Assembly (NCBI GenBank): GCA_963920705.1
Contig: OY987226.1
Location: 20,059,600 to 20,123,599, forward strand
DNA: 64,000 bases
Reading direction: 5' to 3'
Origin: Odiellus spinosus
Taxonomy: Eukaryota; Arthropoda; Arachnida; Opiliones; Phalangiidae
Shown here: one piece after another, positions 15,501 to 63,500 of the stretch
Layout of the letters: every line of letters begins with the position of its first letter
How positions within the stretch are numbered: position 1 is the first letter of the stretch
Made by a program: the position numbers and the translations under genes
Notes under the pieces: model-generated
Told to the model about the DNA's origin: nothing
The model's input: the letters and a program-made list of their open reading frames with translations, nothing else
The model's database searches: none

Positions 15501-18500
15501 AGATTATTTTAAAATAATAAAATCCTGCCTCGCCACTAAAAGAAATCTAGCAACATTTCCAAAAATAACCCCTATCTTGAAATGGTCGTAACTTTTCTCT
15601 ACTATTACCCACACATAAATCCAAAGAAGACTTTTTCTAGATTAATTTTAAATAAGAAAATTGACATGAGCCCCTCGTTAATGATTATTCCGCCACTGAT
15701 AGAAATCGAGCAAAAATCCAAAAAAGTACCCCGATCTAAAAATGGCCGTAACTTTTCTCTTCAATTTCCTAATCATAAACAGATAGCATCATTAGAAAGT
15801 AGACGTCCCCTAGATTATTTTAAAATAATAAAATCCTGCCTCGCCATTCGAAAAAAATGACATTTTTATTTCATTGGTTCATACTTTGGTCCCTATTTTT
15901 TAATCAGGGTTCGCAAGTGAGGAAAAACCCTCGGTTTTTTCAGGTTTAAACCAGGAAGTGTAGTGTCATTTGTTAAAGAAAAAATATTAGACTGGGAAAA
16001 CTCGCGAAACTTTCAAATTTGGAGTTGGCCTTCAAGCCCTTCACTGTTATCGATTATTCAGAATTCTACGAAACAAAATCCATTTTGTTCTAAAATAAAA
16101 AAAAAAAAAAAAAAAACGAAATTTCGTAATGACTGTCGGTGCGGCGTCATTAGTATAGTTGTTGCATTCGGCGTCATTGACGATGGGTCTGGAGGCATTC
16201 GTGATATATTCGACATGCACTTCACGCTCGTTTAGCTCGATCATTGCGATGAGGTCTCTTCGGGAGGAGGGGGGATCTCTTTGTCCATTTCGACTTATTT
16301 GGGTCAAGTTTCTAAAAAAACTACAGTTATAAGAGTACATCGTCTCCTGCAGATTTCACTCGCAATTTAGAGCGAGCGCAAAGTTACAGTATTTTGTTCC
16401 TTGCTTGGACGTAAAGAGGTATATCTTGTTAAGTTTTTTGCATCAACCGCATAAACAACGCGAACGTGATCTATCGCATCGCGGTTGTTAGATGATCAAC
16501 AGCGCGCGAAGAAATTAGAATAATTTGAGGAAAAACTGGTGTTATGTCACTCCCCCTTCCCTCCCCTCCTTGATGGCCCGCTGTTTCTTAAGTCGGTGTT
16601 CGGTTTCTTTACAATAATTCATTTAGGTTCTGTAGTCCGATACTCGCTGTATCCATAAACACTCGTTGATTACGCCATTTTCTATATACCTTCATTAAAA
16701 AATATAAATGTTAATCTTTAAATGAATGTCCCGTCATGTCGCGAGTAGATAGTCTTTCCAGTTTTCGCAGTCTGAGCCCCATCGGCAAAGGGTAATTTCA
16801 TTTTCATGTTTTGATATCTAGACACGCGAGTTCTTCGGGGAACGCGTACGTCGGGAGCTACCACTAGGGTCATTCAATGGTGGTTTGACTTACGCTTTCG
16901 GAGAAACAATTTTCATCCTGACTATATATTAGTAGTCTAACGGCCTTTTTTCTTTGGGCCGTTTCGACGATTCGGATCCACATACGCACTTCCCCATTTG
17001 TGCGTTTTCATATGCGCAGTTTACCATTAATTTATTTGTAGGCACTAACCTAACCTATAGGAAATCTCCGGAAATGGAAAACTGAAACTGAAAAACTGCG
17101 CTTATGGTAACTGTGCGGGTGCGAATGCGCTTATGGGAACTGCGCGGGTGCGAATGCGTTTAGGGGATCTGCGCAATTGAAACATTATCTTTTCTACTGC
17201 TCCAGAAGCGCTGTTTTGGCGAGGGCGGTATGTGAAGAGTTTACTGTTCGCCCCCTGACAAATATACTGATGCTCCCGAATACTTCAAAATTTATTAGCA
17301 CGACTCATATTATGGCGTAGTCATAAAATTAAGACAAATAAAAACCCCTAAGCCATTGTCATCTTAGAAAAACACTAGCGAATTCTGAGAGATCGTTACG
17401 TCTTGGTGATGGTCAAATTTATACTCGTGCAGATTTTTATTTTTAACCATTTTGTTTGGAAAAAGTCTTTCGCCGTTACTGTATGATTGTTATCGGTTTA
17501 GCGTTTTTAATATTTAATAATTGACCCTTTGTGTTTTTTTTAAATAGGGGTCAAGTGGCATCGTGCAATCAGGATGGTAGTTCTACGATCTACGTCCACC
17601 ATCATCAGAACGTGGGCTCTCAACCCCCTTCTTTCGCCAATACTCATTTCAGCGAACATTCCTACCAAAGCCCCGGCGACAGTCTCCTGGTAAGTACACC
17701 ATTATTCAATTACTAGATTATGTTTCCTACTCGTACGTATAAGTACTAGACCATCAAGTTACTGAGCGATTTTAGACTCTGTTTTTGTCAGTCTAAATTT
17801 GAACGCCAAACTTATATTTGGGAAACCTTGTGGTGAATAATCATTGAAAAAACAAACGCGTATAGGTTTAAAGGGAGACTGAAGGAAATCGTGTTTAAAA
17901 TACGATACCTTATTTTTTACATTTCTTAGACCAAAAAATATGTTATTTAGTACATCAAGTATCTAAAATAGTTAAATTGCGGAAGAAAAAAGTATTTAAA
18001 TAAGTACTTTTAGTGACAGCTTCACTCTAAAGGGAGAATACAACCTAAGAACAAGTGACTGCCCCGAATCTTGAGATCGAAGAACAGGCAGTCCAACTCT
18101 CCTTCACCCCTATATCCTCCTAGGTTCTCCTACCGAGAACTCGTAGTTTTTGGTGTGAATTCATCTTTCCCTCGGGATTTCTCTCTCAAAAGCCCTTCCC
18201 ATATTTACTCTGTTACGATCTCTTGTAAACAAGAAATATGACCTTGATCAGTCGTCGTGAATGTTGTTACCGTCGTTGGGGGTGAATAGCCTGACAAGAC
18301 GGTTTGCCCCGATTCATCCTTAGCCAAGGCTTATTGTCGTTTCAAAAGATTAACAAGATTTAAAAATTATGAATAATCTTGTTTGTAACTCGTAGCTTTA
18401 TTATTTTTGACAGAAATTATAATTTTAATCGCGTTATTTTAAGATTTGTCAGCAAATCTGTCTCCCCTGAGTCCTCTTCTCGTTATTTTCTTGATCGTTT

Positions 18501-60500: not shown

Positions 60501-63500
60501 AGAATAGGCAGACGCGCACTCTATTTTTTAGTTCTTACTTAAGCCTATGTTTGCCGTTAGAGAGGGGTTTGTGAACGCCAGGTTTTGTTATTTAAGATTT
60601 AATATAAGATTTAAGATTTAATATTGGTGTCCAGTAGTATACTTTACTGTGTAGTCCTAGATTTTATGAGGATTTCCGTTGAAAGTGTCCGTAATCGAAC
60701 TATAAATTTAATAGAAGTAGTGTAATCGGAGGAATTGTAGAAGATATTTGACTTGTACGTTCTGAGATTTCTCAAACTTCAAATGGAAAACACGAAAATA
60801 TATTTTTTGGTCGGTATTGTTTTAGCTAGCGAATTGGCCGCCTATCAAAATATTATTTTGCATTCTCCCTTTAATCGTACGATGCCGCGTGTTGGTGTGA
60901 TAGGATAGAGAGATTCCTAAATTACATACAGAATAATCCTACACGAAGGGGCACACCTTCCATCTTGGGTAAAAATAGAAATGTCAACAGGGAACTCCAG
61001 TTGGAACTAGGCACCTTGTTACATGTAGCTTCCGCCTAACTAGAGGTTTAAAACACCGCTAGGAGTTGCCTGTTGGTATTTTTATTCTTACGCAAGATGG
61101 AGGGCGTGCTTCTTAGATTCATGTTTCTCTGTGTGAATTTGCGAATCTGCCAATACTAGAGTTTTTAATCGCGACTAGGGTTATCGTTTAAACAACGATT
61201 AACGTTTCCATGTTTCTTTTTCTTTTCTTTCGTAGCACGCTCCCGCGGGTCAGAAAGCGTTGAACAGTGGCGGCGGTGGAGGGCTCGGGGGTGGGATGGG
61301 GGGAGAGGGTCCGGACGGCAAGAAGGCCAAGTTCGTTGCTGTGACCCGTCTCGAGGACACTCAGGCCATCCGCGCCGCCGAATTCCACCCGAACGGTCAA
61401 CTCTACGCCATCGGATCCAACTCCAAAACTCTACGCATCTGCGCCTACCCGAAAATCACCGACCTCGCGTAAGTTAATCACCAGATACCAATTTACCCCC
61501 CCCCCCCCACCATCACTGCAACGCTGATCGCGTTTAAAGATAGAACGAAACTTTCGTAATAGTCGAGAAAACAATTTGACCTTTTTTTCTTTGAATTGCG
61601 CCGTTAGTTTTAGTCGTTCTCGTTAATTTATCACATTCATAAATACTCTATCGTTCAAGCGGAGCATATGGAGTATCTGTACTTTGAAAGGCCTACATAT
61701 GTACTCCTAGTCTCATACGCTTCTGATACTACACATATTTTTAAGAAGTAATTTTAATATACTTCTAATATTTTCTACTTTTTTTTTCTGTGCAATCTTT
61801 TTTTTTTTTTCTTTTTTGGGATAAATCTGTATGAGCGCCCTTTTTAAATCGAAGGAGATAGGGTCGAGTAAATGGATCTTTATTATTCTAGATTTAGTCG
61901 GAATTGAATGTGTGATATTAATTTGTTTATTATAACTCATTGAGGTCAATTTTTTAAGCCACATTTATGGTTAGAAAGAAACGCTTTTTAGCGGATTTTG
62001 AGTTAGCTTTTCTCTGAGACCTCTTAAGTATTAACCGATTGCACAATTAGAAAGTAGACATTCCCTAGATTATTCTGAAATAATAAAATCTTGCCTCGCC
62101 ACTCCAAAAAGATACTTCGCCACTAATAGAAATCAAGCAAAATTGACCCATATCTTAAAATGGACCTAGCTCTTCTCTACAATCTCCTAGGCATAAACCG
62201 ATTTTTACCATTAGAAAGTAAACATTCCCTACTAAATTATGTTAAGATCATAAAATTATGTTTCGCCACTCGATAGAAATCGAGCAAAAAAAAAAAAAAA
62301 AAAAAAAAATGAAAATGGCCATAACCTTTCTCTGCAACCTCCTAGCTTTGCATAAACCAATTGCAGGCAATACGTCTATTCCAAAGAAACTTCCCTTTTT
62401 CAATAGAAAGAAAAGTTTTTACACTCAAAACACCAAGATACTAAGTAAATGCATATCAAATTTACTTCATAAAATTTGCGCAAAACGGCTAATTTTAGTT
62501 ACTTTTCATTTACTTTTTCAAAGTATTAGTTTACTATTTTCACCAAAATTAAGGCAGACTTTGAGTATCACCCCTGCAGTTTTGAAGTCAACTATTCTGC
62601 CGATATTTAACATTGTGGAATCAATATTCCATAACCAGAGTAATACGTTTTCCATTTGAAAGATTTTTGGTCAAGCGAAATATGATTTTTAACATTAGTT
62701 TGTCCAAATGCATGCGCGTACCATAGAGACATTTTACAATGTACCGATCAGTATGGGACGAGATTTTTTTGCTGTTAAAGTTGACTCTCTTCGTTTCTTT
62801 TTGATTTCGTCTTAGGGACGACCACGTGGCCCATCAGCCTTCGGTGTTGTTGAAACGTCTGAAGCATCATAAAGGTTCGATTTACTGCTTGGCGTGGAAC
62901 GCGACGGGCGACCTCCTGGCCACCGGCTCGAACGACAAATCGGTCAAACTCATGAGGTTCAACCCGGACACTTGCAATATAGATGGTAGGACATGACGTC
63001 GGCACTTTCGCAGCCGAGTCTGGTTCGGACGTGGCGAAACTCAGCCGAGGAGCGAACGCGGTGGAGATTTTTGTGCCTTAGGAATGTTAGCTACCGGAGA
63101 CCCATCTTAAATAGGTGAAGATGAATAAGAAATCATGGTGTTCATAAGCGTCCTCTAACCGGAAATAAAGCAAGAACTAACAAACCTACTTCTACCTATT
63201 TTTTATCAATAGCAGCCACGCTCATGGTTTTGTTAGTTCCTTATTTAGCCTCAGTTTGCCGTTAGAGGGTGCTTATGAGCACCAGTTTTTATTATTCATC
63301 ATTATCTATCAAGATAGATGTACAGAAGTAAAGGCCAAGGTTCCTCTGATCGAAATCGCGTCAAATTCGCTCCTCGTCAAAACAGGGCTATAAAATAGTC
63401 ACTTTTAACTATTTTTCTGTAGATAATTTTCGTAGATTTCTTACCTCGGAGTTACTAACTCTTTTATCGTTGTTAATTAGGAGGTGGCGGGGGAACGGGC

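Follow-up and report, generated by a model that had tools for sequence, protein, structure and literature searches.

WDR47 is a microtubule regulator that links CAMSAP-bound minus ends to partners of its WD40 region. In the WDR47 gene of Odiellus spinosus, at least one and perhaps two internal promoters with coding first exons, near 27640 and 48080 in a 43.5-kb intron, may be spliced to the exon at 61236 and so encode a WDR47 of the propeller-only type, the WD40 region being a putative complete propeller; the chances of this appear to us about even.

The analysis covered a window of 64,000 nucleotides and, for some comparisons, 304 kb. Thirteen WDR47 coding exons on the plus strand were assembled as one frame of 987 residues, ten of them inside the window; the last three follow shortly after its end, with the stop codon at the equivalent coordinate 65281. 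The parts of the gene that lie in the window are as follows.

6349-6588, 6702-7049, 7423-7841, 8525-8725, 8822-9035 and 10027-10328, plus strand: WDR47 coding exons 1-6, encoding the N-terminal half and some of the linker in a single open frame
10329-17547, plus strand: WDR47 intron of 7.2 kb, contains the frame at 16736
17548-17689, plus strand: coding exon 7 of WDR47 (linker), entered in phase 2 and left in phase 0
17690-61235, plus strand: WDR47 intron of 43.5 kb, separates the N-terminal half from the WD40 region
61236-61468, 62816-62985 and 63481-63669, plus strand: WDR47 coding exons 8-10, encoding the glycine hinge and the first part of the WD40 region; the first of them accepts phase 0

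Residues 7-308 of the predicted protein match the WDR47 N-terminal domain of PDB 7wej (E 1.4e-96). Pfam places WDR47_COR (PF25602, E 1.8e-28) before the 43.5-kb intron and WD40 repeats (PF00400, E 4.6e-40) in the part that follows 61236, and all WD40 repeats that it detected sit 3' of this intron; LisH_TPL taken alone was weak (E 0.02, below cut-off). With both an N-terminal domain and WD40 repeats predicted, the gene is an arthropod WDR47, and the identity and the split between N-terminal half and WD40 region given in the preliminary description are borne out by PDB 7wej and the Pfam matches. ARAGORN, and Rfam at gathering thresholds, gave no RNA genes, and an IMG/VR scan with the hinge and the first two WD40-region exons returned five pattern matches and no relative. 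A TTAGG-type tract is present and, like the gene content, fits an arthropod.

The preliminary description had placed a cluster of five alternative first exons in the two introns. All five frames begin with ATG, are open and stop short of a GT, and their donor phases are as claimed: phase 2 at 16736, as needed for the acceptor at 17548, and phase 0 for the other four, as needed for 61236. They are listed with the signals found upstream of them.

16736-16791, plus strand: frame of 56 nt, 18 codons, phase 2; unsupported
27564-27639, plus strand: putative core promoter plus 43-nt leader for candidate B, with a TATA word at 27564 and an initiator A at 27597; consensus match only
27599 and 27609, plus strand: weak AG sites upstream of 27640
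27640-27762, plus strand: candidate first exon B, 123 nt, 41 codons, phase 0; codon scores and TATA-initiator pairs
38257, plus strand: weak AG site upstream of 38347
38347-38454, plus strand: frame of 108 nt, phase 0; strong donor (10.1), chance-level total, unsupported
48080-48343, plus strand: candidate first exon A, 264 nt, 88 codons, phase 0; probable, model-dependent
52501, plus strand: weak AG site upstream of 52520
52520-52708, plus strand: frame of 189 nt, phase 0; sharp-edged G+C island with non-coding-like codons, doubtful

None of the five falls in a repeat when 304 kb are compared, the nearby repeats starting near 27826 and 52823, and on this comparison we reject a repeat origin of the frames; candidates 27640 and 48080 are single-copy locally. 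Absence of a usable acceptor just upstream, as had been claimed, holds for 48080 back to the in-frame stop 24 nt away, but the weak AG sites listed above precede 27640, 38347 and 52520. Splicing of 17689 to 27599 would give TTC AAT TAA, a stop. The frame at 48080 has a rival donor of equal score at 48293, in phase 1, and stays open beyond its own donor for a total of 100 codons, with a stop at 48380-48382.

The case for 27640 and 48080 comes from frame scores, calculated as codon log-odds plus donor score. Using a codon model trained on WDR47, 48080 (20.9) and 27640 (19.9) were the top two frames on either strand of both introns, followed by one at 12.7. Shuffles that keep dinucleotides within 300-nt blocks gave no phase-matched frame of at least 19 in 150 trials (all-phase mean 0.033), against two observed. 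When 304 kb were scanned on both strands with the same model, 48080 and 27640 came 15th and 16th of 169. The other 16 of the top 18 comprised seven WDR47 exons, whose ranks are circular because the model was trained on WDR47 itself, one retrotransposon-like ORF recognized by eye and eight frames tested against Pfam, six of which match at E ≤0.01 (two below the curated cut-off) and two of which have no match. Further down, rank 19 had no Pfam match and rank 24 had one. At a Pfam threshold of E 1, no match was obtained for the four of the five frames with at least 20 residues.

An independent codon model was built from eight stretches outside WDR47 (1140 codons). Seven of these are exons that match a Pfam family (two of the matches fall under the curated cut-off), and the eighth is an ORF judged ankyrin-like by eye. 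On this model 27640 scored 15.5, just over the 15.3 that marks the 95th percentile for the highest phase-matched frame in 400 shuffles. The score of 48080 dropped to 8.2, which is noise level and lower than that of 38347 (10.2); first place went to 54880-54976, in phase 1 and within a tandem repeat. With a combined model, 27640 (18.9) and 48080 (16.7) were again the best phase-matched frames, the tandem-repeat frame being level with 48080. Over 500 shuffles, the highest-scoring frame of matching phase came up to 27640 in 0.8% and to 48080 in 3.4% of cases, a comparison that favours the shuffles because the real frames were repeat-filtered and the shuffled ones were not. The corresponding values were 56% for 38347 (9.3), 98% for 16736 (4.0) and 100% for 52520 (0.8). 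The coding signal of 48080 depends on the codon model, and the earlier statement that the codons look coding stands for two frames at best, 27640 and 48080, and fails for 16736, 38347 and 52520.

Other measures of coding character were mixed. Three-base periodicity, compared with shuffles of the frame itself, gave p 0.002 for 48080 and p 0.24-0.72 for the other four (27640, 0.31; 52520, 0.72); at the 0.05 level, nine of the 13 WDR47 exons pass. When 77 intron ORFs outside repeats were ordered by periodicity, the stop-to-stop ORF holding 48080 came ninth (p 0.017). The top two overlap each other, are ATT-rich and lie near 45 kb, and frames overlapping 48080 rank 3 and 6. Since other ORFs, two of them overlapping 48080, outrank its ORF, periodicity is not proof for this frame. 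In a synonymous-codon test none of the five frames passed (best 27640, p 0.08; 52520, p 0.89), and 12 of 13 WDR47 exons did, these being themselves in its training set. The composition-corrected probability of a frame being open and scoring as high, before any correction for frame choice, was 0.003 for 27640, 0.013 for 48080, 0.014 for 52520, 0.04 for 38347 and 0.21 for 16736. The G+C fraction falls after the donor from 0.51 to 0.30 at 27640, from 0.53 to 0.33 at 48080 and from 0.48 to 0.29 at 52520, with a smaller fall at 16736 (0.52 to 0.44) and none at 38347. At 52520 it also rises from 0.25 upstream, which resembles the constitutive exons, and we therefore rate this frame as doubtful, short of exclusion.

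Putative promoter signals are clearest at 27640. A TATA-like word, claimed upstream of four frames, was found within 300 nt of all five with our own pattern; it is uninformative, since 589 of the 1356 intron segments of 300 nt that were sampled contain one. The plus strand of the 43.5-kb intron holds nine TATA-initiator pairs with an ATG within 200 nt, three of them upstream of 27640. This is the only plus-strand place where the first ATG after such a pair opens at least 36 codons; the minus strand has one. The frame at 48080 sits on the highest CpG-count peak among 529 sampled positions, but ATGs occur in its leader and it has no TATA-initiator pair.

The argument from phase did not survive. 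Five matches out of five had been valued at 1 in 243, but the needed phase was matched in 8 of 24 comparable ATG-to-donor frames on the plus strand of both introns (at least 54 nt, donor score at least 4.5, repeat-filtered, overlaps collapsed), which is chance. When tandem repeats alone were masked and overlapping variants were counted separately, 13 of 26 frames matched at a donor score of at least 5 and 27 of 66 at a score of at least 3. The donor matrix is generic and not trained on this genome. Donor-phase compatibility was found, but is weak evidence because chance gives one in three.

This last result also speaks for the reading in which the five frames are open by chance and lie in G+C- and CpG-rich patches of a long intron, patches that may score as coding without being translated because they contain fewer stops. 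The failure of 48080 in the independent codon model and of every frame in the synonymous-codon test agrees with it, as do the CpG counts, four of the five frames lying in the upper tenth or so (fractions 0.006, 0.04, 0.09 and 0.10). Against it, not one of 500 shuffles held two phase-matched frames of at least 16.7 with the combined model; shuffling within 300-nt blocks keeps dinucleotides and therefore the G+C and CpG patches, yet none equals the observed pair. We consider chance frames a serious possibility, if a somewhat unlikely one.

Alternatively, 48080 and/or 27640 could be coding outside WDR47, as a nested gene, a one-exon small ORF or a transcript joining another gene. The continuation of the 48080 frame beyond its donor would fit, the probability of being open and scoring as high being 0.0025 for the longer version versus 0.013, and agreement of two frames in phase is expected by chance in 1 of 9 cases. 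On the other hand, the periodicity of 48080 is lower in the longer version (19.6 versus 23.6) and the tail scores −0.7. A search for internal exons in the 43.5-kb intron gave none with a positive coding score and one candidate at −16.8, at a threshold reached by three of 12 WDR47 acceptors, and the next supported acceptor downstream is 61236. Such a non-WDR47 product is improbable in our judgement. That each of the five is a genuine alternative first exon is very improbable indeed, despite the compatible phase of each, the sharp G+C island at 52520 and the strong donor of 38347, given how often shuffles equal 38347, 16736 and 52520.

In summary, the proposal of five first exons reduces to two credible candidates, 27640 and the model-dependent 48080; 16736 and 38347 are at chance, and 52520 is non-coding-like apart from its G+C edge. 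That one or both of these serve as internal coding first exons is predicted from sequence and could equally well hold or fail. Under this prediction, transcription would start at an internal promoter (or promoters) near 27640 and/or 48080, and the short first exon, coding and ending in phase 0, would be spliced to 61236. How the short form would be transcribed, spliced, translated and put to use is what we infer from these features. The predicted product would carry a novel N-terminus ahead of the glycine hinge and WD40 region and lack residues 1-622 of 987. PMC3327699 describes binding of the MAP8 light chain by the WDR47 C-terminal region, and PMC11730659 reports that constructs without LisH and/or CTLH did not rescue the callosal phenotype. 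By analogy with the published mouse work, the short form would retain C-terminal binding and targeting and lose CAMSAP binding and N-terminal dimerisation. The domain work therefore leads us to expect a CAMSAP-blind WDR47, which would act CAMSAP-independently or compete with full-length WDR47. If true, a WD40-only isoform from an internal promoter would split the two functions of WDR47 at the level of transcription.

The known full-length WDR47/nemitin (PDB 7wej; PMC3327699 and PMC8490363) corresponds to the constitutive gene here, from which the short forms would differ in lacking residues 1-622. In titles, abstract openings and some passages of the WDR47/nemitin literature, internal first exons of WDR47 are not described. 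DLG2 offers a likeness, with coding first exons that have their own promoters inside introns and are spliced to common downstream exons; the difference is that those exons are backed by CAGE peaks, ESTs, split RNA reads and protein evidence, whereas the WDR47 candidates are predicted from sequence statistics. The closest comparison is with Drosophila, where WDR47 (NP_611850) is reported to be without the N-terminus, Bombyx keeping the full-length form (both from PMC12979858). A short form is therefore plausible and less new in kind. The short Drosophila WDR47 is the protein reported for that fly; in O. spinosus a short form would be made in addition, from a gene whose full-length version is intact, and the novelty would lie in a single gene giving both. 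We raise tentatively, and think it unlikely, that the full-length and N-terminus-lacking WDR47 of insects go back to promoter-defined isoforms of one ancestral gene, both kept here (the short one from 27640 and/or 48080), with Drosophila having lost the upstream half to leave a CAMSAP-independent WDR47. If the prediction is true, an internal promoter would be a simple route to the N-terminus-lacking WDR47 described for Drosophila in PMC12979858.

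Within the 43.5-kb intron of WDR47, the reading frame of the candidate coding first exon at 48080-48343 continues for 12 codons beyond its donor before a stop is reached (48344-48382). The peptide VSYE, located at or just beyond the donor, is common to this frame and to the second candidate, 27640-27762, which is possibly a coincidence. The G+C content before, within and after 52520-52708, a frame proposed as a further first exon in the preliminary description, ran 0.25, 0.48 and 0.29, revealing a sharp island whose edges agree with the frame; the codons there look non-coding.

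Several repeats lie in the WDR47 introns:

12525-13056, long minisatellite array
13594-13947, long minisatellite array
21608-21983, dispersed element copy
24148-24792, long minisatellite array
27826-28162, dispersed element copy
40953-41316, dispersed element copy
46876-47504, long minisatellite array

The dispersed element has inverted ends of about 135 bp, and its matches numbered in the tens within the 304 kb compared; the copy at 27826-28162 starts about 64 bp downstream of donor 27762. One of the four minisatellites consists of 15.4 perfect copies of 23 bp, and that at 46876-47504 of 27.3 copies of a 23-bp unit at 97%, ending about 580 bp before the candidate exon at 48080. A perfect interstitial tract in the long WDR47 intron, (CTAAC)8.2 at 44523-44563, corresponds to the TTAGG repeat, the arthropod telomere unit.

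Downstream of the window, two neighbouring exons matched glutathione-S-transferase-type domains:

L003:4544-4873 (downstream stretch), exon matching GST_N_4, below the cut-off
L007:417-836 (downstream stretch), exon matching GST_C_6

They may belong to failed axon connections (fax).
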